From Bacteroidia bacterium (GTDB taxonomy: Bacteria; Bacteroidota; Bacteroidia; SpSt-205), in assembly GCA_025054525.1 (NCBI GenBank), contig JANWZJ010000004.1:14092-68783 (forward strand): 54,692 nucleotides of DNA, in the 5' to 3' direction. A program made the position numbers and the translations under genes. Below the pieces are notes generated by a model, which did not search any database, had not been told where the DNA came from, and worked only from the letters and a program-made list of their open reading frames with translations. Position 1 is the first letter of the stretch; each line of letters starts with the position of its first letter. Positions 2,161 through 54,278 of the stretch are shown here, in pieces.

Positions 2161-2191
2161 CAAAAATACTACTCTGTCTCTCAGGGACAAA
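2161..2191 (-). promoter_or_regulatory. Promoter of nadA
   Basis: On the minus strand TTTG (2188-2191) is followed after exactly 19 bases by TATTTTTG (2161-2168). This matches the Bacteroidota primary sigma consensus TTTG-N19/20-TAnnTTTG. The nadA ATG follows 11 bases after the -7 element, so the 5' leader should be only a few bases. It also rules out the longer nadA start at 2194. Confidence 0.75.
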
Positions 2192-2300
2192 CATTATGAG
2201 AGGGGCTATGGATTAAGTGAAGAAGTACATGGGAAACGCAGGGGAAGGATAAACCCTCTATAACTTAGCTAACCCTCTTGCCCACCTTCTCTTCTTAGGT

Positions 2301-3467
2301 ATGCCCAAGATTATCCACTGCATCCTCCACAATCTTTTCCATGATCAGCGTTTGCATCGTATAGCGCTTACGCTCTCCGAAAAGTACGAGGTAGAGGTGG
2401 TAGGAATAAACCGAGGGAAAGAGTCCCCTCTACCTCAGCGACCCTATAGAATGCACAGGCTATTTATACCTATCCGGCGAGGGCCTCTCTTCTTCCTGAT
2501 AGGCAACTTTCGCTTCTTTTGGTTTCTGCTCTGGAGAAGATGGGATGGAGTAATAGCTTATGATTTAGCAGCTCTACCGGGATGTTGGCTGGCAGCGTTT
2601 CTGCGTAGAAAGCCTATCCTCTTAGATAGCCGAGAACTTTTCACGCAGACCCCTTTCCTTGTTCATCGTCCTCTGGTGCGCAGGATATGGGAACTTGCAG
2701 AGCGTCTATTGTATCCCAGGGTGGCTTATATTATCACAGTGAGCCCGCCTATCGCACGATATTATCAGCAGCGCTACCGCAAACCCACTTGGCTGGTCTA
2801 TAATCTTCCTCCCCGAGCCCAAACCCTTAACGAGCCCTCCCTCTCTCGTAAGCTCCTTCTCTATCAAGGTATGCTTCATCCTTATCGCGGGTTGGAGGAG
2901 GTAATCGCAGCTATGGCATATGCCGAAGGTTGGAGTTTGTGGGTTTTAGGTGATGGGCCTCTTCGCCCTAAGTTAGAGCAGCTTATCCAGCGGTACAACC
3001 TCCAAGAGAGAGTACGACTCTGGGGAATGGTTTCTCCCGAAGAGCTACCTTCCTACACCAAGCAGGCTACATTTGGTATTTCAGGGGAACTGCCTCACGG
3101 TCTCAATCACACCTACGCCATGCCCAATAAGTTCTTTGACTATCTTCAGCAGGGCATTCCAGTATTAGTAGGAGAAGCCCCCCTTCTTCAGAAGTTAGTG
3201 CGTTACTATCGGTGCGGAGCGATTGTGTCTCCCTGGCATCCTGAGCATATAGCCAAGTTCTTGCAGAATTCAGACCTCCTGAATACTGAATATGGGGTAT
3301 GGGTAGAGAATGCTCGCAAAGCTGCCTCGCTTTTCCACTGGGACACTCAAAAGGGTTGTCTCCTTCGCTGGGTAGAATATGCCTTGGAGCGAAAATCCCT
3401 CCCTCCTCAGCAGGAGGAAGTAGCTTGTCGGGTGGTTTCGGAGATAGCCCGCGTTTTGGAGGGATGA
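2301..3467 (+). CDS. GT4-type glycosyltransferase
   Basis: 388 aa with a GT-B fold pattern. The N-terminal half has a hydrophobic membrane-associating stretch (FFLIGNFRFFWFLLW, about 66-80). The C-terminal half has the family 4 signature: GMLHPYRGLEEVI (about 191), WVLGDGPLRPKLE (about 214), RLWGMVSPEELPSY and a late acidic nucleotide-sugar region. It probably moves a sugar from a nucleotide donor to a lipid or glycan acceptor at the inner membrane face; the substrate cannot be read from sequence. No exact TAnnTTTG lies close to the ATG. The nearest candidate, TAACTTAG at 2261-2268, is 32 bases away, unlike most genes here. Its 3' end contains the lipA promoter. Confidence 0.85.
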   Translation: MPKIIHCILHNLFHDQRLHRIALTLSEKYEVEVVGINRGKESPLPQRPYRMHRLFIPIRRGPLFFLIGNFRFFWFLLWRRWDGVIAYDLAALPGCWLAAFLRRKPILLDSRELFTQTPFLVHRPLVRRIWELAERLLYPRVAYIITVSPPIARYYQQRYRKPTWLVYNLPPRAQTLNEPSLSRKLLLYQGMLHPYRGLEEVIAAMAYAEGWSLWVLGDGPLRPKLEQLIQRYNLQERVRLWGMVSPEELPSYTKQATFGISGELPHGLNHTYAMPNKFFDYLQQGIPVLVGEAPLLQKLVRYYRCGAIVSPWHPEHIAKFLQNSDLLNTEYGVWVENARKAASLFHWDTQKGCLLRWVEYALERKSLPPQQEEVACRVVSEIARVLEG

Positions 3468-3483
3468 AGATGTGGTATATTTG
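3455..3483 (+). promoter_or_regulatory. Promoter of lipA
   Basis: TTTG at 3455-3458, 17 bases, then TATATTTG at 3476-3483, ending 10 bases before the lipA ATG. The upstream half lies inside the last codons of the glycosyltransferase gene. Confidence 0.65.
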
Positions 3484-3493
3484 AAGAGATTGT

Positions 3494-4357
3494 ATGAGTA
3501 CCTCCACTACGAGGAGACCTGCGTGGCTGCGAGTGAAGCTACCCTCTGGGGAGAATTACCGATTCGTCCGTAAAGTCATAGATGAACATCGCCTGCACAC
3601 GGTATGCGAGAGTGCCCATTGCCCTAATATGGGCGAGTGCTGGGGTGCAGGGACAGCTACGTTTATGATTCTGGGCAACATCTGTACGCGTTCCTGCGGA
3701 TTCTGTGCCGTGATGACGGGCAGGCCTACAGAGTTAGACTGGGAAGAGCCTGAGCGGGTAGCCCAAGCTGTAGAGCTTATGAGGCTTAAGCACTGCGTCA
3801 TCACCTCTGTCAATAGAGATGAGCTTAAGGATGGTGGCGCGGAGATATGGGCGCGCACCGTACGGGCTATCAAGCAGCGTATGCCAGAGACTACCATAGA
3901 AGTACTTCTCCCTGACTTCAAGGGGAACTGGGACGCTCTATACCGAGTCTTGGAAGAAAAGCCCGATGTAGTTTCCCATAATATGGAGACTGTGAAGCGG
4001 CTCTATCGGCAAGTTCGCCCCCAAGCCAAGTATGAACGCAGCTTAGAGCAAATTCGCCGCACGAGCGAGGCTGGTTTTCGCACCAAATCAGGCGCTATGC
4101 TTGGCTTAGGAGAAACACACGAAGAAGTGCTGGAACTGATGCAGGACCTTTTGGAGAATGGATGTCAAGTCCTCACACTGGGTCAGTACCTTCAGCCTAC
4201 CCCTGCGCACTTACCTGTTATTCGTTTCATATCTCCGCAGGAGTTTGACGAATATGCCCAGATAGGTTATCAAATGGGCTTTGATTACGTGGAAAGCGGT
4301 CCGTTAGTGCGCTCTTCCTATCACTCGGAGCGGCATGTGAAGCCCCGAAGCACATGA
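3494..4357 (+). CDS. lipA: Lipoyl synthase LipA
   Basis: 287 aa, full length. Radical SAM enzyme that inserts two sulfurs into octanoyl groups on lipoyl domains of 2-oxoacid dehydrogenases and the glycine cleavage H protein. Both clusters are visible: the auxiliary cluster cysteines C38, C43 and C49 (CxxxxCxxxxxC), the radical SAM cysteines C64, C68 and C71 (CxxxCxxC), and the C-terminal RSSYH motif whose serine ligates the auxiliary cluster. Its stop overlaps the start of the BatA-like gene by four bases. lipB is not in the window. Confidence 0.97.
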
Positions 4358-6336
4358 GTTTTCTCTTTCCTGCGTTTTTATGGGGGCTGCTCGCCATAGC
4401 TGTGCCCATTATAGTCCATTTCTTTTACTTACGCCGAGCGAAACCCTATGAGTTTTCCCGCACGCTCTTAGTAGAAAAGCTCAAGCAAGCCAGTCGCCCT
4501 TATCTCCGCTTGCGTCACTGGATACTTCTCCTGATACGCATAGGCATAGTAATAGCGATAGTATTTGCCTTCGCTAAGCCCCAGTGGGGTCAAAATGCCC
4601 TAAAGACAGAACGAGGCGCCTCCGTGCTAATAGTGTGGGATGTCTCTCCCTCCATGCATCCCTACATGGAAGCAGCCCGTGCCCTACTCCAGAAGGTACT
4701 TGAGCAAGACCCACCTGCTTATGAGTATCGCCTTTTGACCACAGATAGTCATATACCCAAGGGAGGGTTTGTCAGTGCCCGCGCCCTCTCTGAAAAAATC
4801 AGCCAAGTTCAGCCCGCCAGCATGGGATATCCTATCGCTTCTGTTCTTAGCCAACCAGATTTTCTCTTTGAAGGCGCCTCCTACAAAGCTCGTAGAGTTT
4901 ATATCGTCTCCGACCAGCAAGCCAGCTCCATGGGAGATTTAGCGAAACTTTCCCCTGAGAAGTTAGGTACAATTACTCTTTTGTCCTATCCTCTTATTAC
5001 CCGCCGACCTAATGCATGGGTGGATACCCTTAGCGTACGCCCAGTACCCGAAGGAATTCTTCTCAGCTACGCCCTCAAAATGCATGACCTTGCCTCTTGC
5101 CGAGTGAAGGTAGGAACGCAAAAGTATCTCCTGTCTGCAGGTCTGCACCAAACTTCATTCAAACTAAGCGTTCCTTTCACAGAGTTGCAGATAGAAGGGG
5201 ATGCAGTAAGCATAGATAATCGTCTCTTTATAGGTAGTGCCCTTTCTTACAGCTATGATAGGCCTCAGATTGTATGGGAGCGGCTTCCCTCTTGTATTGG
5301 AGCTGACTGGCAACGCCTCCATGAAATCATGGGACTGACCCCTCAACTCTCAGACAAAATACATGTCTCGCCTGATTTGCGGATAATGATAAGGGAAATA
5401 AAGGACATATTCTCAGAGCCAGAGCTTCGGTGGATCACAGGGGGAGGCACGCTTGTCGCTTTCCCTCCTTCGGGGCTTACTGTTCAGCAGTGGCAATCTT
5501 GTTTCCTCTCCAATGAGGTAACCTTAGAACAAGTATGGAGAGGGTACGAAAGTGTGCGCTTGCGTCCTGGAGAGCATGCCTTCTGGGAAGGGGTATTCCT
5601 TCCCTCGGCTCGAGAAGGAGCTCTTCTCCCAGAACCTCTCCATCTCACACAGTGGTATGCTTTCCGTGCAAAAGCTGCTTTACCCCTGCTCTGGGATGAA
5701 AAAGGGCGCATTCTCCTGCAGGAAATACCCTTCGGTAAGGGAAAAATCTATCTCTTCAGCGTGCCATGCCAAGTTCTCTTTGCCAGCCGGCACAGCCTAC
5801 TTGTGCCCCTACTGGACAAACTGTATCGCAGCGGGACAACCGATTTTTCTCGTTGGACGGTACATTTAGGTAGCCAACATACTTTATCCCTTCGGAGTAC
5901 CTCTAATGAACCTCCGCTTCTGCGGCATCTCTATGAGAAATTTGAATACATCCCTCCTCATGCTATTCAAGGGGAGCAGACTATATTGTATTTAGGGCAA
6001 GAGCCCATTCCAGCGGGGATTTATGAGGTTTATATAGGCAAGGATAAGCAAGGTTACCTGGGGGTAAATATTCCTCATGCCGAGTCATCCCCTGAGACAT
6101 ACGAGATAGAGTACTGGAACCGATATGGCTTTTCGGTGGAAGTGGTATCTCAGGAGCGCGGCGCTATTTCACGCAGAGAAGGGTTCCCTTGGCGCAGCTA
6201 CTGGATGTGGTTGGGAATCGCCTTAGCGCTTATCCTTCTGGAAGTCTTCTGGGCGCGCCGGCTGCTGCGTCCCACTACTTTATCTCCACTGCAAACCGCC
6301 TCCGCACCTCCTTCCCTGACGATGGGTAGTAAATGA
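4354..6336 (+). CDS. BatA-like membrane protein with vWA-type domain
   Basis: 660 aa. The N-terminus is the BatA (aerotolerance regulator N-terminal) domain: [28 protein letters not shown] forms membrane segment 1, and a second membrane segment lies at about 57-74. A von Willebrand A-like domain begins at about 88, where DVSPS replaces the usual DxSxS metal-binding motif. A long beta-rich periplasmic part follows and a last membrane helix lies near 617-635. The family is common in Bacteroidota, often with MoxR ATPase, DUF58, DUF4175 and DUF4159 proteins. DUF4175-like and DUF4159 genes are present elsewhere in this window, but no MoxR. Molecular role unproven. Its last 62 bases overlap the convergent gene at 6275. 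Confidence 0.8.
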
Positions 6337-6703
6337 CTTCTGCTGTGCCTTTGACCTTTCGGTCTCGGAGAGTAGCCTCTAACTCCAGTTCGCCCAACTC
6401 GTTAGAGTCATAAATCGCATGCCCTATGCTTTGTCCTGCTTTGAAGAGCCGAATAATGACCTTAGAATTAGGTCTCAACCCAGTTATGTGGATGTTATAA
6501 GTCTTCCCGCCCTCTATAATAAGCGGGTCTGCCCATGTGAAAGGCTTTCCGTTCACGGTGATAATAGCTTCTTCTCGCCGAGGCACGGAAGCTGTGGGGG
6601 CTGGCTGTTCGCCTTCCTCTCCAATCACTTCATCCTCATGCGAACTATGCTGGGCAAAGACGCCCGAAACCCACAGCCCTACAACGACTCCTATCCAACG
6701 CAT
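6275..6703 (-). CDS. Small secreted protein of unknown function
   Basis: 142 aa from the ATG at 6703. A signal peptide is clear (MRWIGVVVGLWVSGVFAQ), followed by an acidic, proline-rich linker (about 19-45) and a predicted beta-rich domain (about 48-142) that looks like a small immunoglobulin-like fold by pattern only. I do not recognise a family. The frame is open 23 codons further upstream, but TATATTTG lies 3 bases before the chosen ATG. The 3' end overlaps the BatA-like gene by 62 bases on the opposite strand. Confidence 0.65.
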   Translation of the reverse strand: MRWIGVVVGLWVSGVFAQHSSHEDEVIGEEGEQPAPTASVPRREEAIITVNGKPFTWADPLIIEGGKTYNIHITGLRPNSKVIIRLFKAGQSIGHAIYDSNELGELELEATLRDRKVKGTAEVIYYPSSGKEVRRRFAVEIK

Positions 6704-6706
6704 GGT

Positions 6707-6714
6707 CAAATATA
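6707..6714 (-). promoter_or_regulatory. -7 element of the small secreted protein gene
   Basis: Exact TATATTTG on the minus strand ending 3 bases before the ATG at 6703. No good TTTG at the -33 position was seen. A predicted start point at or next to the ATG implies a leaderless mRNA. Confidence 0.6.
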
Positions 6715-6798
6715 TGCGACTTTTGGCATAGTCTCTGAGCGTTGGATCCGGAAAAGAGTCTTCTATCGTCAAGGCTGTCTATCCCCAAGAAACTGCTT

Positions 6799-8706: not shown

Positions 8707-8731
8707 CACCTGCAATTATCCGCAAGTTCCG

Positions 8732-8739
8732 TAGCTTTG
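8732..8739 (+). promoter_or_regulatory. -7 element of gldE
   Basis: Exact TAGCTTTG ending 8 bases before the TTG start of gldE at 8748. At the expected -33 distance only a partial match (CCTG, 8709-8712, spacer 19) is seen. It lies inside the 41-base space to the divergent secreted-protein gene. Confidence 0.5.
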
Positions 8740-8747
8740 CCGAAGCG

Positions 8748-10037
8748 TTGGACCCTATTCCACTGGTGGGGGTTGGGGTATTCCTCCTATCCTCAGCCCT
8801 TTTCTCGGGCTATGAGACCGCCTTTTTCTCTTTATCCCCAGCCCAACTCAATGACCTTATCCACAGGCATCCAGGGCGAGTCTGGGTGCACTGGATACGC
8901 TACTTTAGCGAGGTACCTGAGATACTGTTGAGTGTTATCCTTATCGGCAATACCTTGGTAAATTTAGGGACGACGCTCTTGCTGCTTCATTTAGGAAGGC
9001 AGTGGGGCCCTTCAGGCGAAGCGATAGCCGCTGGGGTAGCTTTAGCCTTGCTTATTCTGATTGGGGAGATTATACCCAAGAGCCTGGCGATTACGCAACC
9101 GATAGCGTTTCTTCAAGTAGCTACGCCGCTCATTCAGGTGAGTTTATGGGCTACCTATCCTGTATCATGGTATATGGACAAGCTTAGAAGAAGTGTAGAA
9201 AGACGCTGGCAGACACAATCTTCCCCCGAAAGCTTAACACGCATCGTAGAAACAATCCCTACAGACCTTTCCCCTCCTGCGGAGAAGCGCATACTCAAGA
9301 ACCTTCTGCTTTTGCGCCAGCTCCCCGTCAAAGCCTTCATGGTCTCTCGGATGGATATGAAAGCACTCCCCTATGACCTTCCCTGGCAAAAGCTCAAAAC
9401 TGCCATAGCAGAGGTAGGACTCACTCGCATTCCCATCTATAAGGATAGTTTAGATAACATACAAGGCGTACTGCTTGTCAAAGAGCTTTTGCCGCACTGG
9501 GATAAAGAAGAACTCTCTAACTGGCAAGCACTGCTGCGTAAAGTCCATTTCGTCCCCGAAAATAAAAATGCTTATGAGCATCTGCTATACCTCAAAAATC
9601 ATCGCTTCCCTTTGAGTATCGTTGTAGATGAATTCGGTAGTGTAGCGGGAGTTGTATCCCTTCAGCGCCTTTTGGAAGTTATATTTGGATATGAAGAAGA
9701 AGACCGTAAAGAACAGCGCCTATATGAAGTGTATGCCGATGGCTCTATCTGCTTCCAGGCCCATGTGCCCCTTCTATTGGTACAGGAATTACTTCAACTG
9801 CCAGTAGATTTCTTTTCCGAGGAGGAAGCGCGCAGCGCAGAGAACTTAGCAGAGTTCTTACTTTCGCTGGCAGAACGAATCCCTGCCAAAGGAGAAACTC
9901 TCATCTATCGGGATTATGCGTTTGAGGTGTTGGAAGGCACGGCTCATCGGATTGAGCGGGTGCGTGCTTATCGTCGTAGCTTGCCAGGATCCAGCAGTCC
10001 CTCGTCCGAAAGCCTATCCGCGTCTAACCCTGCCTGA
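8748..10037 (+). CDS. gldE: GldE, CNNM/CorC-like gliding-associated membrane protein
   Basis: 429 aa. The order is a DUF21/CNNM membrane domain with three or four helices (about 1-135, including GVFLLSSALFSGYETAFFSL), a CBS pair (about 190-315, with VSRMDMKALP and FPLSIVVDEFGSVAGVVSL), and a CorC_HlyC C-terminal domain (about 330-410). The TlyC/CorC-like protein directly upstream of gldD is the gldE-gldD arrangement known from Flavobacterium. In that genus GldE is linked to GldD function in gliding and type IX secretion. An in-frame ATG exists at 8646, but it would run into the divergent gene. The TTG at 8748 is preferred because an exact TAGCTTTG lies 8 bases upstream and the protein then begins just before its first membrane helix. 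Confidence 0.85.
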   Translation: MDPIPLVGVGVFLLSSALFSGYETAFFSLSPAQLNDLIHRHPGRVWVHWIRYFSEVPEILLSVILIGNTLVNLGTTLLLLHLGRQWGPSGEAIAAGVALALLILIGEIIPKSLAITQPIAFLQVATPLIQVSLWATYPVSWYMDKLRRSVERRWQTQSSPESLTRIVETIPTDLSPPAEKRILKNLLLLRQLPVKAFMVSRMDMKALPYDLPWQKLKTAIAEVGLTRIPIYKDSLDNIQGVLLVKELLPHWDKEELSNWQALLRKVHFVPENKNAYEHLLYLKNHRFPLSIVVDEFGSVAGVVSLQRLLEVIFGYEEEDRKEQRLYEVYADGSICFQAHVPLLLVQELLQLPVDFFSEEEARSAENLAEFLLSLAERIPAKGETLIYRDYAFEVLEGTAHRIERVRAYRRSLPGSSSPSSESLSASNPA

Positions 10038-12624: not shown

Positions 12625-12628
12625 GAAG

Positions 12629-12636
12629 CAAATATA
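12629..12636 (-). promoter_or_regulatory. -7 element of the beta-barrel gene
   Basis: Exact TATATTTG on the minus strand, 4 bases before the ATG at 12624, in the 15-base gap after the rpe stop. A leaderless mRNA is predicted. Confidence 0.6.
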
Positions 12637-12639
12637 GAA

Positions 12640-13327: not shown

Positions 13328-13335
13328 TATTTTTG
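13328..13335 (+). promoter_or_regulatory. -7 element of the AlbA_2 gene
   Basis: Exact TATTTTTG ending 5 bases before the ATG at 13341, inside the 29-base space to rpe. Confidence 0.6.
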
Positions 13336-14015: not shown

Positions 14016-14023
14016 TATCTTTG
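14016..14023 (+). promoter_or_regulatory. -7 element of the thiolase gene
   Basis: Exact TATCTTTG ending 4 bases before the thiolase ATG at 14028, in the 21-base gap after the AlbA_2 gene. Confidence 0.6.
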
Positions 14024-15487: not shown

Positions 15488-15495
15488 TACCTTTG
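15488..15495 (+). promoter_or_regulatory. -7 element of the aminotransferase gene
   Basis: Exact TACCTTTG, 3 bases before the ATG at 15499. It marks this ATG as the start rather than an in-frame codon at 15382 inside the acylphosphatase gene. Confidence 0.6.
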
Positions 15496-24734: not shown

Positions 24735-24764
24735 CAAAGATAGGGAAATCGTTTATTCTCCAAA
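24735..24764 (-). promoter_or_regulatory. Promoter of the DUF4175-ybeY-mnmG unit
   Basis: On the minus strand TTTG (24761-24764), 18 bases, then TATCTTTG (24735-24742), ending 7 bases before the ATG at 24727. Together with the nadA promoter this is the best match in the window to the full two-part Bacteroidota consensus. Confidence 0.75.
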
Positions 24765-24776: not shown

Positions 24777-24784
24777 TATTTTTG
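24777..24784 (+). promoter_or_regulatory. -7 element of the enoyl-CoA hydratase gene
   Basis: Exact TATTTTTG, 4 bases before the ATG at 24789. It lies back to back with the divergent promoter at 24735-24764 in a 61-base intergenic space. Confidence 0.6.
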
Positions 24785-26604: not shown

Positions 26605-26612
26605 TATATTTG
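26605..26612 (+). promoter_or_regulatory. -7 element of the PorP/SprF gene
   Basis: Exact TATATTTG, 5 bases before the GTG start at 26618, in the 14-base gap after the aminotransferase gene. Confidence 0.6.
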
Positions 26613-27603: not shown

Positions 27604-27611
27604 TACCTTTG
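27604..27611 (+). promoter_or_regulatory. -7 element of gldJ
   Basis: Exact TACCTTTG, 3 bases before the ATG at 27615 (or 9 before the in-frame ATG at 27621). Confidence 0.6.
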
Positions 27612-30036: not shown

Positions 30037-30044
30037 CAAAACTA
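30037..30044 (-). promoter_or_regulatory. -7 element of ccmE
   Basis: Exact TAGTTTTG on the minus strand, 4 bases before the ccmE ATG at 30032. Leaderless transcription predicted. Confidence 0.55.
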
Positions 30045-30065: not shown

Positions 30066-30073
30066 TATCTTTG
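30066..30073 (+). promoter_or_regulatory. -7 element of the tRNA-Leu gene
   Basis: Exact TATCTTTG whose last base is 6 bases before the first base of the tRNA. If transcription starts where it does for Bacteroidota promoters, the tRNA precursor has almost no 5' leader. Confidence 0.55.
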
Positions 30074-30079
30074 CTCTGA

Positions 30080-30163
30080 GCCCGGATGGCGGAACAGGTA
30101 GACGCGCCAGTCTCAAAAACTGGTGGAGGCGACTCCGTGCCGGTTCGAGTCCGGCTCCGGGCA
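30080..30163 (+). tRNA. tRNA-Leu (anticodon CAA)
   Basis: 84 bases. The acceptor stem GCCCGGA (30080-30086) pairs fully with TCCGGGC (30156-30162), with discriminator A at 30163. The anticodon stem CCAGT (30107-30111) pairs with ACTGG (30119-30123) around loop CTCAAAA, giving anticodon CAA at 30114-30116 (reads UUG). The long variable arm (GGAGGCGACTCC region) is the class II mark of tRNA-Leu, and the T arm has GGTTCGAGTCC. CCA is not encoded. The TamB reading frame runs open through the whole gene. Confidence 0.95.
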
Positions 30164-33100
30164 CTATTAATCAGGCTGGTCTGGGGGCTATTTTTCACCC
30201 TTGCGGGCGTTGCTTTCCTCATAGAAATAAGTGCCTTGACGCTCAACTTCTTTTTGCGCAGTGAGACGGGAAGGAGTTATATCGTTCATCATCTTCTACA
30301 GGCAATCATCGTCGCCCTACATACAGATGCAGAGGTAGAAGATGTGTGGGTCTCTCCCTCCGGCAAAATCCTTCTCAAAAGACTTACCATTTACGATAAG
30401 GCTTGTGTGCCGTTTATTCGCGTAAAAGAAGCAAAGATTCACTGGATACCTCTCTTTTTCTGGCGCGGCATCTGGAAAGGCAAACTCTATATTCCTCTTT
30501 CATCGATTGAGCTTTACGAGCCGCAGGTTTTGATTTATCAGGAGAAAAATACAGGACTCACTAATATAGATCGCTTGTTTCCAGCGGATACTTCTACCTC
30601 TGAAAGTGCCCCTCTCCGAATAAATCTATCGCATCTGCTTCTCCAAGACGGTACGCTTATTTGGAGAGACTCCACGGCGTCATCTGATGAGCTTCGGGCA
30701 GAACCAGGTTTCTTGCATTATGCACACTTATGGATAGACTCTCTCTCCTTCTCAGGCAGCTTAAGCTGGAATCAAAAGCACTTATTCGCTCGCATCGCGC
30801 GCCTGTCTCTGCGAGAGCGAAACTCAGGTCAGCACATCCAGCAACTCTCTCTGGTATTAGAAGTAAGCCCCCAGCGAACCCTAATATCTGACCTCTCCAT
30901 CGTACTGCCCAAAAGTCATATTAGGGGAAGGGGGATATTCCCGAAAGAAGGACTGGATAAGTTATTTTTGAATACAGAGACGAAGTTTTTTCGAGCATAC
31001 TTGGAGGGGACTATAACGTGGGAAGAGATAGCAGCATTTGCAGGAACATCTCTGCCCCTTCAAGGCTCATGGTATGTACAACTTCCAATTGAAGGAGACC
31101 TTTACTACTTTCATACGCCAAATGCCCATATTCGGTTTTCGGAGGAGGAGTATCTCAAGCTGGAAGGTAGCATTTTTCGGTATGCCCGTCCCTCCTACAT
31201 GCACTGGCAAGCGCATATTTTGGAGAGTTCTCTCTCGCTGGGTAAGCTAAAGGAAACACTACCTCTTCTAGACTTTCCCTCATGGATGAATCAAAGAGTA
31301 CGATTGAACCTTCGCGGCAAACATACAGGCCGCCTTCACACTTATGCTTGGGAGATAGAGAGCGATAGTCTGAAAGTGATCGGGAATATTTCGCTGGAAG
31401 CGGTGTGGCGATATGCTATGGAGTTGAGCTGTGAGGGCTGGCCAGTGTATTATCTCATTCCTGATAGCCCTGTCAGGCAGGTTCGGGGTAAGGTTAGTGT
31501 GAAAGGGCATGGCTTCGCATTAGACTCTCTTGAGAGCTCTTTACAAGTTTTTCTCACCGGTATGGATAGTCTGGGACACTCTTACGCATTGACAAGCGTA
31601 GGAGAAGTACTTCGGGGAAGCTGGCGGGGAAGTCTGTCCTTTGCCCTGCCTCAGGGGCAAATCAGTTTCACAGGTATTCTTGGATTAGGGGGGCGGGGGA
31701 CCTCTAAGGGGTACGGCTACGTAAAAGACCTACAAGCTGCGCTCTGGGGTGGAGAAGGGCGCGTGAATGCCGACTTTGGGCTACAAGCGCCTGCTCCTTT
31801 ATGGCAGCTTAGAGACCTTACTTTGACTTTGTCTAACGCCAGCTGGCGGAGAGGAGATATTGTTCAGAACCTCCCAGCCGCTACTATCAAACTTTACTCT
31901 ACAGACCACTTAGTGGTGGAGGGGGAGAGGGTTCAGCTCGCTTTTGAGGGAATCGGTCCCTGGCAGAAATCTCTCAGACAGGAATGGGCGGTATGGCAGA
32001 AATGGATAGAAACAGGTATTTGGCAAAGAGACTCCGCCCTTGAGAAGTTTGCTCTGAGGATAGAGGGGCGGGGGCGCGGTTCGGAGTGGTTAGAATTAGC
32101 GGGTTTCCCGGATTTGCATGTAGGGCAGTGGTGGATTCGCCTGCTGGCTGATGCAGACTCCCACGCAACCCATCTTAGCTTAGAGGCTCACTGGGACACG
32201 CTGGACCTGCAAAACATCCATCTATACCAGGCCGCTATTCAAGCCCACACTCAAGACGAACTGTTGGGGTTTGTTTTTTCTTCCTCTGCGGGGAAAGCGG
32301 GCATTCAGTATGATAGCCTCTTTCTATCGCTGGATGGGATACCTGCGAGCGGACATATCACGGGTTACTACAAGCTGCCCTATAAAGAAGGAGAACTCTT
32401 TTTGCCTATGCGCTGGACTCGCAGTGCTGGTTCGCCGTGGATATGGCTTTCTTTGGAGGAGGTCTCCCATGCCTTTCGGTTAGTGCTTCATGGGAGGCAG
32501 TGGCGCTTATATGAGGCTTCCGATGTAGGCATAAACCTACCCACCAGAGAATGGGAACTCCGAGAACTGCGCCTCCAGAGTGAAAACTCGCTCTTTCATC
32601 TCTCCCATCGGTTGGATACAACCTTGGTAGAACTGGAAAACTTACCGATGGAAGCTATGCTGGCAGCCACAGGCATCGAATTACCAGTAGTAGGACTAAT
32701 CTCGGGCCGCTGGTCCAGTACCCAAGATACCTCGGACTTTTTTATCCAGATAGACTCCCTACATTACTACGAGCAGCCCTATCCTACCTTGCGGCTTTTA
32801 GGAACGGTCTTTCGGGACAGGGTGAATATCCACGGCGAGGCTAAGGATAAATCCCACGCATACTTCGTGGGATTAGGGAATTATGAACTCAAAGATACGA
32901 TTGCGCCGCTCTCTCTGGATTTATACAGCTTGCGGGTGCCGGTAGAATGGCTCAAGCCTTTCACCGAAGAGTATCTACAAAGTCTGAAGGGAAGCTTCTT
33001 TTCCCAGCATGTGGCGATTCGGGGGAGCTTGACCAATCCTCAAATCCTCGGAAAGGTAACCCTTCAGGATGTGAGCTTTTATGTGCCGTTTTTACGAGGC

Positions 33101-37589: not shown

Positions 37590-37597
37590 CAAAGGTA
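37590..37597 (-). promoter_or_regulatory. -7 element of the siaC-like gene
   Basis: Exact TACCTTTG on the minus strand, 7 bases before the ATG at 37582, in the 58-base space to dnaE. Confidence 0.55.
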
Positions 37598-41167: not shown

Positions 41168-41175
41168 TATTTTTG
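41168..41175 (+). promoter_or_regulatory. -7 element of trxA
   Basis: Exact TATTTTTG, 6 bases before the ATG at 41182 (12 before the in-frame ATG at 41188). It excludes the longer frame reaching back into dnaE. Confidence 0.6.
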
Positions 41176-44078: not shown

Positions 44079-44091
44079 TACTTTTTTTCAG

Positions 44092-44099
44092 TAGCTTCG
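44092..44099 (+). promoter_or_regulatory. Near-consensus -7 element of dsbD
   Basis: TAGCTTCG (one mismatch), 9 bases before the ATG at 44109. Confidence 0.3.
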
Positions 44100-44108
44100 C
44101 ATACGCTT

Positions 44109-46178: not shown

Positions 46179-47125
46179 AGTACGAAGTCGTCATTATTGG
46201 CTCGGGGCCTGCGGGTTATACGGCAGCGTTATATGCTGCGCGAGCCGGATTATCTCCCCTGGTGATAGCAGGTCCTGAACCCGGCGGGCAACTTACCCGT
46301 ACCAGCGAAGTGGAAAACTTCCCCGGCTATCCCGAAGGTGTTTTAGGAGGGCAGCTCATGGATGACCTGCGGCGCCAGGCAGAACGCTTCGGTACGAAAG
46401 TACTCTACGATGTGGTGGAAAAAGTGGAACTGCGCCCTTTTCCTAAAAAGCTTTGGCTCAGTGGAGGTGAGACAGTAGAAGCGGATGCAGTAATTATTGC
46501 AACCGGTTCTTCGCCGCGGTGGCTTGGACTGGAAGCGGAAAAGCGGCTGTATGGAGCTGGGGTGAGCGCATGTGCTGTGTGTGATGGCTACTTCTTCCGA
46601 GGCAAACCCGTAGCCGTAGTAGGTGGAGGAGACTCCGCTTGCGAAGAAGCCATGTATCTCTCTCGGCTCTGCTCAGAAGTGCATATGCTTGTACGACGAG
46701 ACCAAATGCGCGCCTCCCGGATTATGCAGGAAAGAGTCAGAGCCACACCTAACATCCATATTCACTGGAATACCATCACCGTAGATATTTTAGGCGAGCA
46801 GAAGGTAGAAGGTGCGCGTGTGCGCCATGTGCTCACCGGAGAAGAGACAATCCTCCCAGTACAAGGGTTCTTTGTAGCTATAGGACATGTCCCCAACACG
46901 GAAATATTTCGGAATCAGGTTGCTTTAGATGCGGCTGGCTATATCTTGACCGAACCCAAGAGTACTCGTACTAATATAGAAGGGGTATTTGCGGCGGGGG
47001 ATGTGCAGGACCCTATATATCGTCAGGCGGTTACGGCAGCGGGCACAGGGTGTATGGCGGCGCTGGAGGCAGAGCGTTGGCTCATGGAACAAAAACATAG
47101 AAAAGCCACCTTGGGCGTGAGCTAA
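46175..47125 (+). CDS. trxB: Thioredoxin reductase
   Basis: 316 aa. FAD motif [19 protein letters not shown] (about 7), redox motif CAVCDG (C133, C136), NADPH motif [16 protein letters not shown] (about 147) and [23 protein letters not shown] (about 272), given in parts. It reduces thioredoxin with NADPH. Translationally coupled to dsbD by a 4-base overlap. Confidence 0.97.
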
Positions 47126-47130
47126 TTTTG
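47123..47130 (+). promoter_or_regulatory. -7 element of nuoB
   Basis: Exact TAATTTTG overlapping the trxB stop codon, 11 bases before the nuoB ATG at 47142. Confidence 0.5.
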
Positions 47131-47141
47131 TTAGGAATGGT

Positions 47142-48766: not shown

Positions 48767-49131
48767 GCGCTAAGGGGTCGATAGTATAAACGATGGCACA
48801 TCTCCTCTAAAGAAGGCGCCACCCGATAGGCTGGAAAACCTTCTGCGTGCCAGAAAAAATATACGCCCCCTTCTCGTACATTCCATGCCAGCAGATTCCC
48901 AAAGGTATCATACCCCAAAGGTAAGTATTCTTCTGGAGAATCTATGCGCAGCCGGAGACGGTGAAGGAAAATGTTGCGTTCGCCCTCTACTGGTTCTAAG
49001 ATATAAGTGAGTCGTACTGCACACAGGGTTCCCCCTCGCCAAATATCAAACATGGGATATTTACGCACTCGCTCCAGCCAGTGGTGATAAATAGGTGGTA
49101 GAGAAAAAGGAGGGATAATTTCTGCGTCCAT
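48763..49131 (-). CDS. SUKH (SMI1/KNR4)-like small protein
   Basis: 122 aa from the ATG at 49131; a TTG three codons upstream is excluded by the -7 element it would overlap. The C-terminal half resembles the SUKH fold: EEYLPLGYDTFGNLLAWNVREGGVYFFWHAEG followed by a SLEEMCHRLYY helix, matching the family's LPI-x-x-D-x-x-GN, V-Y-F-W and F-x-x-F/L-L pattern. SUKH proteins are often immunity proteins or adaptors, but many single-copy members have no known toxin. It lies between the CHAT gene and pabB. Confidence 0.5.
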   Translation of the reverse strand: MDAEIIPPFSLPPIYHHWLERVRKYPMFDIWRGGTLCAVRLTYILEPVEGERNIFLHRLRLRIDSPEEYLPLGYDTFGNLLAWNVREGGVYFFWHAEGFPAYRVAPSLEEMCHRLYYRPLSA

Positions 49132-49137
49132 TTGCGT

Positions 49138-49145
49138 CAAATTTA
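49138..49145 (-). promoter_or_regulatory. -7 element of the SUKH-pabB unit
   Basis: Exact TAAATTTG on the minus strand, 6 bases before the ATG at 49131. Confidence 0.55.
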
Positions 49146-49190
49146 GGGTAGATATGGATTGTTTCTTCGGCTACTCGCGGTGGCATATCC

Positions 49191-52100
49191 CTACTGCATC
49201 ATCACGAAAGCCCCCCAGTAGTAAGGATGAGAATACCTCTTTCGGAAGGCACTCAGTGTGTGATAAAACACCGTTTCTATCTCTTCTCGTCGCTTTCTTT
49301 TCACCGAGTTCTGATAAAAGCTTAGCATAAGTTCTCTGGTTGCCTCATCATCTATTTGCCATAAGGTAGCGATGACGCGCTGGGCGCCTGCCTCCAGAAA
49401 TGCTCGCTGGAGTCCATAGAGCCCTTCTCCTCGCACTTCGCCAAGGCCCGTCTCACAGGCGGAAAGAACTACCAACTCTGTGCCGATGAGGTTGAGATTA
49501 CAGGCTTCTTGGGCTGTTAGTCGTCCATCCTCTCCACCCAACGGCGGAAAAAGGCTATCCCATAAAGCTGCTTGCGCTAGAAGCAATCCGCCTGCTAATA
49601 GCGGATTTCGTTCTCCTCCTATGAAATAGCCATGAGTTGCCACATGTAGCACCTTGGGGGATCGGAGAAGCTTCAGGTAATTCTCTGTGGCTGCTTTGCC
49701 TATCACGGGGGAGACTCCCAAGAGCTGGGCTATCCCCTTTGCTTCTACCTCAGCCCCCGGCAAGGGGGGAATACCCCCTTCAAAGAGCCGATAGCTTCTC
49801 ATCCGAGGTTCGGAGATTGTGTCAGGTATTGTAGAAAAGTCTGGGTTTCCTATTACTACAGGCTTCTGGGTGAGAAAGCGCCTGCGCCGTAGCAGAAGCC
49901 GCCGACTGCTGGCAAGGTAACGCACTTCATAGCGGTCAGCCACAAACTGCTTCCGCTCTGAGTCATACAGCGTAGCCACATTCACGAGGTGGTATACTCC
50001 ATCCGGGGAGAAATAGACTTTTCGGACCTTCAGGGGCAAAAGAGAGTCTAAAAATGCCCACAACCGCTCATAAGGCAGCCCGGACGGTACTGACCGAGGG
50101 GAGTGTAAAATCCGATAAGAGTTTCTTACTCGTCGCTCCCAGAGTGTATCCACCTGATGCACATGTAAGTACAGGGTATGTTTCCTGCCCGTAGGCAAAA
50201 GAAGATAAAAGAGATACAGAAGGCTGTCTTTTTTCCCAGAAGGCACCCGTACGACTTCTATCAGTGCTTCATCGGGGCGTAAGGAAGGCAACAGCGGTTC
50301 TCCTGCGGGGTCAGGTAGGAAATCTCTAAGGGCAGGCAGCCGTAGCACAATTTCTCGCTCTATCTTCTGTAACACCCCCCAGAGAGAGTCTGCGACTGGA
50401 TAGTTTTCCTGCAGGGTAAGTAAGGCATACAAGTTTGCTATATGTCTCCACTGGCGATAGCGGGCATGAAGTAGGGTATCTCGGCTGGTTTCTATGAGGT
50501 GCTTCATCGCCTCGGTGGAGGAAAGGAGAAGCCCTTTGAAGCTGCGGGCCGCGCGATAGCCCAACTGAATGATTTCAAGGCGGTCTCGGCGTTCCGCCAC
50601 ATATCGCTGGAAGTCCGATAGACGACTTTCCAAAAGGTTTTCCAGTAGGTTTTGGCGGGCGGCGGTCGGAAGGGTGGGAAACTCTCGGCGAATGCGATCA
50701 AAACTCTTTTGTACGATAGTTTGCCACAAAGTGTCCGCCTCCCTATAACGCTGCTGAAGCTGGTATAGACGAGCTAAGTTGGGAAGGGCATAAAGAGAGT
50801 AATTGGGATGTTCAGGGCCTAATACCTTCGCCCAGACCGCTTTCGCCTCCAAGTATAGCGTTTCTGCTTCAGCATATCGTCCTTGAGCCTCATATACGCT
50901 TGCTAAGTTATTGAGGCTCCAAGCATAGTCAGGGTGTGCGGTACCCAGCGCCTTTGCCCAAATAGCTCTAACTTCCTTATGTAAGGTTTCTGCGGCTGCG
51001 TAGCGCCCGCGCGCCACATATATATTCGCTAGATTATTGAGGGTATGAGCATAATCAGGGTGTTCAGTACCTAACACCTTCGCCCTAAGGGCTTTTACTT
51101 CTGTGTGTAGGGTTTCGGCAGCTGCATACCGCCCCTGTGCCCAATATACATTCGCTAAGTTATTGAGCGTAAGTGCATAGTTGGGGTGCTCGGGGCCTAG
51201 CACCCTCGCCCAAATTGCTTTCGCTTCTAAGTATAATGCTTCCGCTTCTCCATACCGTCCTTGAGCCCGATAGACGATGCCCAAGTTGTTGAGCGTGCTG
51301 GCATAATCAGGATGATCAGTGCCCAACACTTTTGCCCGGATGGCTTTCACCTCCGAATGCAACGCTTCTGCTTCTGTATATCGTCCTTGAGTTTGATACA
51401 GGACTGCCAAATTATTAAGAGCCCACGCATAACGGGGATGCTCTGGGCCTAGTGCATTCGCCCAAATCCTTTTTACTTCTAAATACAGCGCTTCTGCTTC
51501 GGCATAGCGACTTTGGTCCGAATACACATTTGCTAAGTTGTTGAGCGTACGAGCGTACTCGGGATGTCCGGTGCCTAATACTCTCCGCTGGATGGCTTTT
51601 AGGTGCAGGTATAACGACTCGGCTTGGGCGTACCGACCTGTTTCCCGATACAGAATCGCTAGGTTATACAACACGCTAGCATACGCCGAATGTTCAGTAA
51701 GCGCAAGAGACTCTAAGACGCGAACGGATTGGCGATAGTATTCCTCTGCTTGGTCATATTTAGTCTGGTCATGAGCTATTAACCCCCGACGTCGCCAAAG
51801 GGTGGCATATAGTAAGGTTTGTTGGGCACTTTGGGTTTCCACTATTTGGATTGCTTGCTGGAGAGCTACCTCCGCATCCGCATAGGCTCGGGTTTGGTAA
51901 TGGTAGAGTCCTCGCCAGCCTAATAGTTCCGCGTACCCAAGAGTGTCTCGTAAGCGAAGTGCCAGTGACTCTACTGGGGCTATCCAAATGAGAGCTTCTT
52001 TGGGCTTGTTTGCTCCCCCCCACGCCTCGGCGGCTTTGAGATGGAGCCGTAGTTGTAGAGTGTCAGGCATCGGTTGCGTGCGAAAAAGAGAATCATACAG

Positions 52101-52208
52101 CCCTAAAGCGGAACCATATTTTCCTTGCTTGAGTAGGCTGTCCACCGTCTGCAGAAGCGGCTGGGCGCTAAGAGCAGAAAGAAACAGCCCATATTTCCAC
52201 TGCTTCAT
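49191..52208 (-). CDS. Secreted TPR-CHAT protease-like protein
   Basis: 1005 aa. A signal peptide-like start (to about S14), TPR helices from about residue 20, then a run of 42-residue kinesin-light-chain-type TPR units (strict register from L211 to G462, each opening LGxxHPxYA). Next comes a helical linker (about 500-640), then a CHAT (caspase/separase-like) domain (about 645-1005) with the catalytic pair H859 (HVATHGYF) and C918 (SACETG), followed by EGLYGLQRAFLEAGAQRVIATLW in the usual order. CHAT domains are cysteine proteases or their relatives. TPR arrays bind partner proteins. Substrate and activation unknown. TATCTTTG lies 4 bases before the ATG. Confidence 0.88.
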   Translation of the reverse strand: MKQWKYGLFLSALSAQPLLQTVDSLLKQGKYGSALGLYDSLFRTQPMPDTLQLRLHLKAAEAWGGANKPKEALIWIAPVESLALRLRDTLGYAELLGWRGLYHYQTRAYADAEVALQQAIQIVETQSAQQTLLYATLWRRRGLIAHDQTKYDQAEEYYRQSVRVLESLALTEHSAYASVLYNLAILYRETGRYAQAESLYLHLKAIQRRVLGTGHPEYARTLNNLANVYSDQSRYAEAEALYLEVKRIWANALGPEHPRYAWALNNLAVLYQTQGRYTEAEALHSEVKAIRAKVLGTDHPDYASTLNNLGIVYRAQGRYGEAEALYLEAKAIWARVLGPEHPNYALTLNNLANVYWAQGRYAAAETLHTEVKALRAKVLGTEHPDYAHTLNNLANIYVARGRYAAAETLHKEVRAIWAKALGTAHPDYAWSLNNLASVYEAQGRYAEAETLYLEAKAVWAKVLGPEHPNYSLYALPNLARLYQLQQRYREADTLWQTIVQKSFDRIRREFPTLPTAARQNLLENLLESRLSDFQRYVAERRDRLEIIQLGYRAARSFKGLLLSSTEAMKHLIETSRDTLLHARYRQWRHIANLYALLTLQENYPVADSLWGVLQKIEREIVLRLPALRDFLPDPAGEPLLPSLRPDEALIEVVRVPSGKKDSLLYLFYLLLPTGRKHTLYLHVHQVDTLWERRVRNSYRILHSPRSVPSGLPYERLWAFLDSLLPLKVRKVYFSPDGVYHLVNVATLYDSERKQFVADRYEVRYLASSRRLLLRRRRFLTQKPVVIGNPDFSTIPDTISEPRMRSYRLFEGGIPPLPGAEVEAKGIAQLLGVSPVIGKAATENYLKLLRSPKVLHVATHGYFIGGERNPLLAGGLLLAQAALWDSLFPPLGGEDGRLTAQEACNLNLIGTELVVLSACETGLGEVRGEGLYGLQRAFLEAGAQRVIATLWQIDDEATRELMLSFYQNSVKRKRREEIETVFYHTLSAFRKRYSHPYYWGAFVMMQ
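50823..51578 (-). repeat. Six tandem 126-base TPR-coding repeats
   Basis: Residues 211-462 of the CHAT protein: six consecutive units of exactly 42 residues (126 bases), starting at residues 211, 253, 295, 337, 379 and 421, with further degenerate units on both sides. Units alternate between LGPEHPxY and LG-T-[GDEA]-HP-[DE]-Y openings and between LYLE and LHxE in the second helix, which suggests duplication of unit pairs. Confidence 0.85.
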
Positions 52209-52212
52209 GTTC

Positions 52213-52220
52213 CAAAGATA
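52213..52220 (-). promoter_or_regulatory. -7 element of the CHAT gene
   Basis: Exact TATCTTTG on the minus strand, 4 bases before the ATG at 52208. Confidence 0.6.
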
Positions 52221-52436
52221 AATAAAATGAGAATAGCACTCCTTGGGGTAAGGGGGCTTGATCTTACCCGCTCTCTGAAGGACTGTGCCGGAGCTCCTTT
52301 GAGATTAGCCGAGATTGTGGAGGTAGGTTCTCCTGTCTGAGTAGGAAATTGCTGTGCGAAACAAAGAATAGTTTCAAAGTAACGCGAGAAGGTCTGATCT
52401 GGAAGTTCAAATAGTAGGAGGAATATTAGCGCGGGC
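52221..52436. other. Intergenic region between dnaG and the CHAT gene
   Basis: The largest non-coding gap of the window. It holds a 7-bp inverted repeat (52246-52252 with 52263-52269, loop of 10) without a T-run on either strand, and a TTTGAAAC-like inverted repeat around 52360-52380. No convincing gene, tRNA or riboswitch seen. Confidence 0.4.
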
Positions 52437-54245
52437 CTATTCCTTTTGAGGTTTGCGGTAGGGTAGCAGCACCCCTTGTCGGCGGGCGATTTCATTCCGC
52501 TGACGCAGAAGAAACTGGTGAAGCGAAAGCGTTTCTTCATAAGCAGGGTCCTCCGGGGTCAATCGCTGAAGGTGATGGAGATTTTCTGAGAGAAGTTGGT
52601 CTAACTGAGCCAAGTGAAGAAGGTATAGATTACTCTCTAAGATATGGATAGGGTCCTCTTCCAAAGTACTGTCATCCCAGTTGCGCCAGTGGGGACTGAG
52701 GGTGTATTTTTCCATGAGCAAGCCTGCCACCCAGTCTTGGGCTTCAGGGCCGAGTTCTTCGGCAAGCTGCTGAAGAGAAGGCAGGGTATCTTTCTCATTT
52801 ATTTCTCTGCAGAGCCATGCGCGTACTTTTTCGGCCGTGGGGTCGGCAAAGGTCATATGGCGTACCTCTTCCGAGAGAAAGCGGGCTATGGGCATGTCCA
52901 TGTAGGTCCTTTCAGGATAGAGAAACCATATCCGAAGGAGTTCCCTCTCGGCAGTGATGCGTTGGGTGGTTTGGGGGGAGGGCGAGGAAACCGGCGGGGG
53001 CGAGAAACCCTCCCAGAACTCTAGCGGAATATGCAAGTGTTGGGCTATCTCTTCGGCATAAGCTCTACGCAAATACAGATCAGGTAAGCTTTGGAGTCCT
53101 TGTCCTAACTTTTGCAGAAGCTGATAGCGCTGCTGGGGAGAAGGCTCTGGGGGGAGTTTGCTTGCGAGAAAAAGCGCCCAACTCGTGGCGCCTTCTAATA
53201 GGTGCTGAAAAGCGGAGGCCCCTTCGCTTTGAATGTACTCATCAGGGTCTTTGCCATTAGGTACTTGAGCTACTCGTACGAAGAACCCTACTGATAAAGC
53301 GGGAAAAATAGCTCTTTCGGCTGCAGCTTGTCCAGCCTCATCGGAGTCAAAAAGTAGAATCACTTCTTTTGTATGGCGCTTTAGCCGCTGGAGGTGCTCC
53401 TCTGTGAGAGCAGTCCCACAAGTAGCCACCGCATGTCTAAAGCCCATCTGGTGCAAGCTCAATACGTCCATGTAACCTTCTACGATGAGAGCAGGTTTGC
53501 CTTTGCGCAGCTCACTGCGTGCCTCAAAGAGACCATATAACAGTTCCGACTTACGGTAAAAGGGGGTTTCGGGAGAGTTGAGATACTTGGGCTGGTCGCT
53601 ATCCGTTACGATTCTGCCCGCCAAAGCCACAATCTGCCCTTGCTCATCAGCCAAGGGGAAAATCACCCGTCCCCGAAATCTATCATAAAGCCTATCGGTG
53701 TTTTCTTGGCGCAGAGAGATGCCCCATTCTATGAGCTGCTTTTCCGCATAACCCAACCGCAAAAGGTGGCGCGTAAGTTCATCTCCCCCAGCGGGGGCAT
53801 AGCCCAAGCTGAATCGCTCTATAATCTCTTCAGAGAGTCGCCGTTTTTGCAGGTAGAGTTCGCCGGGGCTACCTTTGAGGCAATGGCGATAGAATCGTAC
53901 TACTTCTTGATACAGAGCCAAATAGCGCTGTTTCTCTTTGGAGGTGTAGCTTTTTTCGGGCGAGTCCTCTATGTCTATCCCGTATTTTTGGGCGAGTTTG
54001 CGTAGGGCCTCTCCATAGGAAATGCCTTCTATTTCCATCACGAACCGAATAGCATCTCCTCCTTTACCACTGGCGAAGCATTTGAAAATCTGCTTGATGG
54101 GGCTGACTGCAAAGGAAGGCGTACGCTCTGGCTTGAAGGGAGAAAGGGCCCAGTAGTTAGCGCCGCGCTTTTTGAGGGGCAGATACTCGCTTATGACTTC
54201 TACGATGTCTGCCCGGCGGAGTACCTCATCTCTTAGCCAACTCAC
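52437..54245 (-). CDS. dnaG: DNA primase DnaG
   Basis: 602 aa from a GTG start. Makes RNA primers at the replication fork. N-terminal zinc-ribbon region (about 30-65), TOPRIM catalytic core with VEGYMDVLSLHQMGF (about 260), LLFDSDEAGQAAAERAI (about 308) and DPDEYI (about 346), then a C-terminal helicase-binding helical part (about 430-602). Three of the four zinc ligands are replaced: S35 for Cys, K38 for His, S59 for Cys; only C56 remains. Similar loss is seen in other Bacteroidota primases as far as I recall. The rest of the enzyme looks intact. Confidence 0.95.
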   Translation of the reverse strand: MSWLRDEVLRRADIVEVISEYLPLKKRGANYWALSPFKPERTPSFAVSPIKQIFKCFASGKGGDAIRFVMEIEGISYGEALRKLAQKYGIDIEDSPEKSYTSKEKQRYLALYQEVVRFYRHCLKGSPGELYLQKRRLSEEIIERFSLGYAPAGGDELTRHLLRLGYAEKQLIEWGISLRQENTDRLYDRFRGRVIFPLADEQGQIVALAGRIVTDSDQPKYLNSPETPFYRKSELLYGLFEARSELRKGKPALIVEGYMDVLSLHQMGFRHAVATCGTALTEEHLQRLKRHTKEVILLFDSDEAGQAAAERAIFPALSVGFFVRVAQVPNGKDPDEYIQSEGASAFQHLLEGATSWALFLASKLPPEPSPQQRYQLLQKLGQGLQSLPDLYLRRAYAEEIAQHLHIPLEFWEGFSPPPVSSPSPQTTQRITAERELLRIWFLYPERTYMDMPIARFLSEEVRHMTFADPTAEKVRAWLCREINEKDTLPSLQQLAEELGPEAQDWVAGLLMEKYTLSPHWRNWDDSTLEEDPIHILESNLYLLHLAQLDQLLSENLHHLQRLTPEDPAYEETLSLHQFLLRQRNEIARRQGVLLPYRKPQKE

Positions 54246-54250
54246 CCCAG

Positions 54251-54258
54251 GAAAAATA
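54251..54258 (-). promoter_or_regulatory. Near-consensus -7 element of dnaG
   Basis: TATTTTTC (one mismatch at the last base), 5 bases before the GTG start at 54245. Confidence 0.35.
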
Positions 54259-54270
54259 CAGCCTTTCTCC

Positions 54271-54278
54271 TAAATTCG
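54271..54278 (+). promoter_or_regulatory. Near-consensus -7 element of the DUF4159 gene
   Basis: TAAATTCG (one mismatch), 4 bases before the ATG at 54283, inside the 37-base space to dnaG. Confidence 0.35.

Follow-up and report, generated by a model that had tools for sequence, protein, structure and literature searches.

The TAnnTTTG octamer, the -7 box of Bacteroidota promoters, lies close upstream of the start codon of many genes in a stretch of 54,692 nucleotides (nt) from a Bacteroidia bacterium, called here the window (contig JANWZJ010000004.1, positions 14092-68783, of a 1.80 Mb draft genome; GC content is 50% in the parts read). In the family of this microorganism the ordinary sigma-A promoter has very probably moved against the start codon, and many mRNAs of genes coming first in a transcription unit (unit-first genes) are leaderless, or nearly so. 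The family, f1, includes 12 genomes: the window's own, ten more of its genus, and one of the sister genus. The order containing f1 counts 13 genomes in our set, the thirteenth belonging to the sister family f2. From promoter geometry we infer both leaderlessness and the location of the 5' ends of the transcripts.

The number of bases between the end of TAnnTTTG and the start codon is called gap. Gaps were measured in a sample of the window's genome of 562,006 bases (the window and 39 other stretches), in which 430 genes were called by a home-made program which selects starts by coding score, is blind to the motif, and misses some genes. Sixteen genes near piece ends were excluded, and 414 had enough upstream sequence. 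The element is found at gap 0-15 in 92 of them. At gap 2-12 there are 89 matches, where positions 30-109 upstream of the starts would predict 2.9, and the commonest gap is 4 (30 genes). In the same interval five permuted motifs gave 0, 1, 1, 3 and 5 matches, and the reverse complement 9, its own background being 5.5. A pattern made by the element and a start codon at gap 4, TANNTTTGNNNNATG, which needs no gene caller, occurs 133 times in the whole genome; the reversed pattern, used as control, occurs 6 times. Exact elements on both strands of the window are 50, the mean in shuffled sequences being 27.4.

A first, sequence-only reading of the window had reported the element, and proposed that a count by distance to the start codon be made genome-wide; the count has a peak, at gap 4. 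The same reading set the chance expectation at about 0.06 hits over 27 starts and nine spacings, a figure hardly changed (0.05) when recomputed with the upstream base composition. That the signal reflects chance, or the composition of an AT-rich octamer near starts, has a practically negligible probability. The motif has six fixed bases only, and partly guided the choice of starts in the sequence-only reading, but the permuted, complementary and reversed controls remain far below it, and spacing is kept among genomes while the flanks diverge (see below).

Occurrence of the element depends on gene context. At gap 2-12 it marks 42 of 118 divergent genes of the sample, 12 of 79 co-directional genes lying at least 30 bases from the preceding gene, and 30 of 66 co-directional genes at 5-29 bases; overlapping or near-overlapping genes have it in 2 of 136 cases, against a background of 0.8. 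Exact elements precede 66 of the 210 unit-first genes at gap 3-8, 18 at gap 9-16, 10 at gap 17-40 and 5 at gap 41-80, so that most of the recognisable promoters are the leaderless ones. A weight matrix tolerating mismatches was applied at gap 3-9 to four f1 genomes, with in-gene and upstream controls, given here in this order. It recognized 80-91 of 162 divergent genes (2-13, 1-8), 43-49 of 86 short-gap genes (0-2, 4-10), 26-31 of 92 co-directional genes at 30 or more bases (1-2, 2-6), and 5-19 of 199 overlapping genes (1-9, 2-10). In 12 other genomes of the class the matrix recognized 23-34 of 150 divergent genes (3-11, 11-25). The signal is concentrated at unit-first genes and close to background inside operons, and the promoter box lies at a short, constant distance before many start codons, both being traits by which leaderless genomes are recognized.

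Promoter identity and conservation of spacing

Elements are found also upstream of genes which are not translated. In the sample of the window's genome, six of seven first-in-unit tRNAs carry one 5-9 nt upstream of the 5' end (Met 7, Val 5, Trp 9, Phe 8, Tyr 6, Leu 6); tRNA-Arg has none, nor have the two tandem follower tRNAs (Thr, Gly). Discarding tRNAs with less than 70 nt of upstream sequence, nine elements precede ten first tRNAs in the f1 sample, 5-13 nt away, and four precede six first tRNAs in the class sample, at 9, 11, 25 and 52 nt. Further untranslated RNAs were sought in the same sample and in three relatives; apart from tRNAs, one RNase P and two signal recognition particle (SRP) RNAs came to light. 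Both SRP RNAs (genomes G004 and G011) have the element 1 nt before the first base of the Rfam model. Distances from tRNAs and SRP RNAs fit a transcription start 4-5 nt after the element.

Seventy-nine sites were aligned on the element. A/T residues are enriched from -20 to -16, A accounting for 44-49% at -19/-18 and T for 40-50% at -17/-16; no peak was seen for a TTTG box at -33. In the account given of Flavobacterium johnsoniae promoters (PMC6847099), AT-rich motifs are located at -18 and -28, the G of TTTG is at -5, and the -33 TTTG is likewise much less evident, so its absence here is not disqualifying. Combined with the F. johnsoniae spacing, a gap of 4 would make the A of ATG the first transcribed base. 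The sequence-only reading had similarly equated the element with the -7 box, and predicted transcription to begin 0-7 bases from the start codon; tRNA and SRP RNA genes, the AT-rich block at about -18, the background level in overlapping genes and the spacing maintained throughout the genus in the two genes aligned all agree with it.

That TAnnTTTG is here a promoter and not a ribosome site is well supported, because it precedes untranslated tRNAs and SRP RNAs and is at background in overlapping genes. Closeness to start codons is what one would expect also of a ribosome-binding motif carried by mRNAs which begin farther upstream. This alternative is highly improbable: overlapping genes need start signals too, the element equals the sigma-A -7 box deduced from RNA-seq data, along with its AT-rich upstream block, in the part of PMC6847099 that describes it, and as little as about 47 bp often separates divergent starts.

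In some genes spacing is strictly conserved. Upstream of the thiolase gene the element lies at gap 4 exactly in all of the 11 f1 genomes aligned, and the flanks have diverged; the f2 genome lacks the element, and G001 a close orthologue. For the echA-like gene, all 11 genomes of the genus likewise show a gap of exactly 4; the sister genus holds a distant relative only. The proteins encoded by the thiolase, echA-like and rpsU genes are conserved from within a few residues of the ATG which follows the element (9-11 genomes each). An echA paralogue apparently interrupted by single internal stops was inspected in five genomes, four of which had been listed with such a stop; all five contain a long open frame, and the stop itself was not located.

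Several data weigh against a leaderless family. The sequence-only reading called the element near-universal, a description which does not hold genome-wide: at gap 3-8 an exact element precedes 33% only of f1 unit-first genes (99 of 298 in four genomes), and about half only of the divergent genes, as of the short-gap ones, are recognized by the weight matrix. Gaps of 9-12 occur (13 of the 210 unit-first genes of the window's genome), a gap of 3 would need a transcription start at 3-base spacing, and at gap 5 C is the fifth base past the G in 8 of 17 cases, so that the start must shift by one base to reach the A of ATG. No exact element precedes the sole RNase P gene found, that of G004. Of 47 orthologue pairs 45 were usable. 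The element, at gap 3-12, is common to both members in four of them, confined to one member in 10, and absent from both in 31. Changes of gene order may have created and removed promoters, or some starts may be mis-called.

A rival reading is that most messengers do have leaders, the promoters being real but the true starts lying downstream, or stronger promoters upstream. Starts are predicted, those of lipA and porP were moved by the caller, some unit-first genes have no element, and orthologues share it poorly. We regard this reading as quite unlikely, since protein conservation starts near the ATG of the element in the three genes above, and the gap-4 count is independent of the gene caller. 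The same caller yields a commonest gap of 19-20 in named loci from the rest of the class, and the method can thus detect leaders. Mis-called starts were rejected as the main cause.

Distribution among Bacteroidia

The gap-4 pattern is in clear excess in the other 11 f1 genomes as well (138-223 matches, 2-23 for the reversed control). The f2 genome has 50 matches, against 39 in the control. Three genomes (G051, G090, G123) of f41, an AT-rich Bacteroidia family located elsewhere in the class, have 269-356, against 75-89. Surveys covered 149 genomes of the class and 247 of the phylum, the two sets overlapping; ranks were computed for 44 rows, and the remaining rows were compared by eye. The excess per Mb measures 66-97 in f1 and f41; the next genome has 47, and none outside the two families reaches their values. 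One genome, G133, has few control matches and a clear gap-4 excess (64 vs 5), and some lineages may hold small, easily overlooked leaderless sets.

Unit-first genes were sorted by gap, comparing the 3-8 and 17-44 intervals, in f1, f2, f41, 12 other genomes of the class, and 78 named loci (L072-L149), mostly of the class; 20-80 kb were sampled per genome in class comparisons. Genes in the two intervals are 99 and 17 of 298 in four f1 genomes (ratio 5.8), 31 and 16 of 94 in the three f41 genomes (1.9), 11 and 9 of 45 in f2 (1.2), 25 and 56 of 337 in the other class genomes (0.45), and 23 and 97 of 799 in the named loci (0.24; f1 versus named loci, Fisher test, 6e-26). Five of the 12 class genomes had been chosen for their raised gap-4 counts, which makes the contrast with f1 smaller. 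Family f41 joins f1 as a lineage in which the leaderless share is high, and f2 looks intermediate. In named loci the distribution of gaps is two-humped, with a minor hump at 3-10 and the main one from 17; three matches only fall in the range 11-16, as though leaders of about 7-12 nt were avoided in these loci.

The leaderless genes of f1 might be the small fraction found in any Bacteroidota, and the lineage unremarkable. A gap-4 excess is seen also in the three f41 genomes and, smaller, in other families, and the share of mRNAs with leaders of about 10 nt or less, as published for single species in the sources cited below, is 3.7-13%. This possibility is nonetheless very unlikely, given the ratios of 5.8 in f1 and 0.24 in named loci, and a leader upstream of rpsU which is kept in f41 but not in f1.

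The shape of f1 genomes fits short or missing leaders. The median distance between divergent starts is 47 bp, vs 165 in the class sample, which leaves little room for leaders, and co-directional pairs which overlap or are at most 4 bases apart are 199 of 377, vs 69 of 286. GUG is used in 16 of 120 leaderless starts. A residues at -3 are found in 17% of leaderless f1 genes, and in 17-24% across four f1 gene sets, vs 44% of class unit-first genes, groups which differ in GC content. In base profiles upstream of f1 genes no G-rich peak is seen beyond the element itself.

The order appears to be thermophilic, with small genomes of about 2 Mb. Growth temperatures estimated from IVYWREL residues are about 77-78 C in three genomes of the genus, 63 C in the sister genus, 60 C in the f2 genome (G012), and 2-40 C in 15 others. 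The GC content of tRNAs is 62.6% in f1 (14 tRNAs) vs 52.5% in the class sample (6 tRNAs). A metagenome-assembled genome of the genus, SKYB95 (JANXDD010000036), comes probably, judging from "SKY" in its name, from the Malaysian hot spring of PMC8857248, where water at two mats is reported to measure 58-64 and 71-74 C. The f1 family is probably heat-loving.

The rpsU gene, encoding ribosomal protein bS21, provides a test case. In F. johnsoniae its native leader is given as 25 nt; a strong Shine-Dalgarno (SD) sequence marks rpsU in many Flavobacteriales, and serves autoregulation in F. johnsoniae (PMC9976891, portions on rpsU). Ten f1 genes were examined, G008 and G009 not being represented. Nine have an exact element at gap 5-7, G004 being the exception, and an SD-like string was found in the last 22 nt of none. 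Among 23 genomes from the rest of the class, 22 yielded the gene. In 21 of these it follows the element at a gap of 17-51, no element being present in the remaining one (G059); an SD-like string precedes it in 7. Genes of f41 have gaps of 23-25, and keep an ordinary leader; the f2 gene has neither the element nor an SD. Bases directly following TTTG upstream of rpsU are often C-rich in f1 as in the class, e.g. TTTGCAGCCC, and the presumed region of transcription start may have been conserved while leader length changed.

Residue Tyr54 of bS21, which helps to hide the anti-SD in F. johnsoniae and whose mutation raises translation from the SD-bearing rpsU mRNA (PMC9976891, as far as its text on Tyr54 goes), is kept in all 10 f1 genomes read. 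Most of the class have Tyr as well; Arg is found in this position in L259, L260 and L261 of f41 and in L265 of f49, His in the f2 genome and in G033, and in lineages with Arg or His the anti-SD may be less hidden. Proteins bS21 and bS1 were considered as candidates for a loss at the origin of the leaderless state. The former was found in 11 of the 12 f1 genomes; a bS1-like match was also obtained in 11 of 12, below the curated cut-off in all, as in all but one of 40 genomes, with scores lower than in most of the class. As each gene (a bS1-like one, in the case of bS1) is still found in 11 of 12 genomes, the loss of either is an unlikely and unsupported cause. No 16S rRNA, sought for its 3' tail, was obtained from the genomes of the family searched. 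RF00177 had no match in the window's genome, and had one in 1 of 16 genomes (13 candidates scored per genome); a conserved 16S string was found in 0 of 17, and the stretches may be masked.

Taken further, f1 would be a thermophilic family of Bacteroidia almost devoid of ribosome-binding sites, in which unit-first genes would be translated from a 5'-terminal AUG and most of the others by coupling to a preceding gene which they overlap; the switch would be recent in the order, the f2 genome being intermediate, and accompanied by compaction of divergent gaps to about 47 bp and loss of the SD autoregulation of rpsU. We advance this broader scenario tentatively, as somewhat less likely to be correct than not.

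Elements in the window

Coordinates of the elements are listed in Table 1. The sequence-only reading reported 18 genes with an exact element 3-11 bases before the start; all were found in place when the window was read again. It cautioned that the element had helped to choose a few of the starts. With motif-blind starts an exact element at gap 3-12 is still obtained for 15 of the 18. In lipA and porP the motif-blind caller took later starts, and Pfam matches begin near the starts of the sequence-only reading; the 6275 gene has no Pfam match and was not called by the motif-blind caller.

Table 1. Exact TAnnTTTG elements of the window and the genes they precede (window positions; SL, gene label from the sequence-only reading).
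Feature	Coordinates	Strand	Gap	Remarks
-7 element, nadA	2161..2168	-	11	NadA by Pfam; ATG at 2149
-7 element, lipA	3476..3483	+	10	ATG at 3494; LIAS_N match from residue 4
-7 element, 6275 gene	6707..6714	-	3	gene doubtful
-7 element, gldE-like	8732..8739	+	8	CNNM/CorC; TTG start at 8748
-7 element, 11893 gene	12629..12636	-	4	
-7 element, gene 13341	13328..13335	+	5	AlbA_2, SL only
-7 element, thiolase 14028	14016..14023	+	4	
-7 element, gene 15499	15488..15495	+	3	aminotransferase, SL only
-7 element, DUF4175 gene	24735..24742	-	7	SL only
-7 element, echA-like 24789	24777..24784	+	4	SL
-7 element, porP/sprF 26618	26605..26612	+	5	GTG start
-7 element, gldJ 27615	27604..27611	+	3	SL only
-7 element, ccmE	30037..30044	-	4	
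-7 element, tRNA-Leu	30066..30073	+		6 nt before tRNA 5' end; absent from the sequence-only list
tRNA-Leu	30080..30164	+		served by element at 30066
-7 element, siaC-like	37590..37597	-	7	
-7 element, trxA	41168..41175	+	6	
-7 element, nuoB 47142	47123..47130	+	11	
-7 element, SUKH-like	49138..49145	-	6	SMI1_KNR4 match below cut-off
-7 element, TPR-CHAT gene	52213..52220	-	4	

Five further genes had been assigned elements with one mismatch. Such sites do occur at the called starts 37641, 44109, 54245, 34511, 35923 and 15203; they are weak evidence, and not all were matched to the five names. The TamB gene had been listed among those without an element; an exact one exists nearby, but belongs to tRNA-Leu. 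The longest TamB open reading frame (from 30086) starts inside the tRNA, and this start is therefore probably wrong.

The DUF4175 and echA-like genes are divergent, and their starts are 61 bp apart. The nuoB element opens with TAA, which doubles as the stop codon of the preceding gene (end at 47125); other short-gap co-directional pairs may likewise share bases between stop codon and promoter.

Initiation route and known systems

We infer the route of initiation, as well as the link of leaderlessness to thermophily. RNA polymerase with the usual sigma-A would melt DNA at TAnnTTTG, and transcription would begin at the A of AUG or no more than about 4 bases away. As an mRNA of this type has no room for a ribosome site, the 5'-terminal codon, AUG or GUG, must be recognized by a ribosome, most likely one preloaded with the initiator fMet-tRNA (a 30S subunit with IF2, or a 70S ribosome). 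Many downstream genes, which overlap or abut the preceding one, would probably be restarted by coupling.

SD sequences are rarely used in Bacteroidota. Leaderless mRNAs have reportedly been concluded not to explain this sparse use in F. johnsoniae. In family f1 they probably do so to a large extent, and its relatives are intermediate or leadered; the transition from leadered to leaderless mRNAs, and the ribosome changes attending it, become testable. Start prediction tuned to Bacteroidota may fail in f1, and promoter positions can be read almost base by base from its genomes.

As the sequence-only reading had stated, leaders are longer in the Bacteroides studied. Figures given in the sources, as available, are a median of 32 nt with about 3.7% of leaders below 10 nt in B. 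thetaiotaomicron (PMC7366714), a median of 24 nt with 5.5% of leaderless mRNAs in F. psychrophilum (PMC9723704), and a mean of 33 nt in F. johnsoniae, where 87% of the transcripts with a probable promoter have leaders longer than 10 nt (PMC6847099). Of 953 bacterial genomes covered by one survey, 207 had leaderless genes, Bacteroidetes/Chlorobi contributing 1 of their 37, at 2.4%; the survey sought Pribnow-like boxes, and its text states that such genes could be missed (PMC3160421, in part). A composition study of 2017 suggests, in the section at hand, that leaderless mRNAs or S1 may serve species of several phyla, Bacteroidetes among them (PMC5397173). A study of gene starts describes AT-rich non-canonical sites in the FCB group, and its predictions assign leaderless transcription to 21.6% of bacterial species, Bacteroidota not being named in that passage (PMC9581028). 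Among the top-ranked open-licence literature matches, in the portions available, a largely leaderless lineage of Bacteroidota is not reported.

The f1 elements resemble most closely the sigma-A (sigma-ABfr) promoters of Bacteroides and Flavobacterium, with which they share the TAnnTTTG -7 box and the AT-rich block at about -18; transcription would start 4-5 bases past the element, if spacing is alike. They differ in that leaders are longer in Bacteroides and Flavobacterium, whereas the commonest leader predicted in f1 measures 0, and no -33 TTTG is visible in f1. In Deinococcus-Thermus, Actinobacteria and archaea, which are rich in leaderless genes, a promoter box is likewise found at a fixed short distance from the start, and in f1 the signal is strongest at unit-first genes; the sigma element of f1 is different from theirs. 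The SD-independent, A-rich (Kozak-like) initiation of F. johnsoniae is a further term of comparison. In f1, too, SD pairing is not in evidence, and Tyr54 of bS21 is retained, but leaders are missing and A at -3 is not enriched. The rpsU gene of F. johnsoniae features a leader and an autoregulatory SD (PMC9976891, same portions), that of f1 neither.

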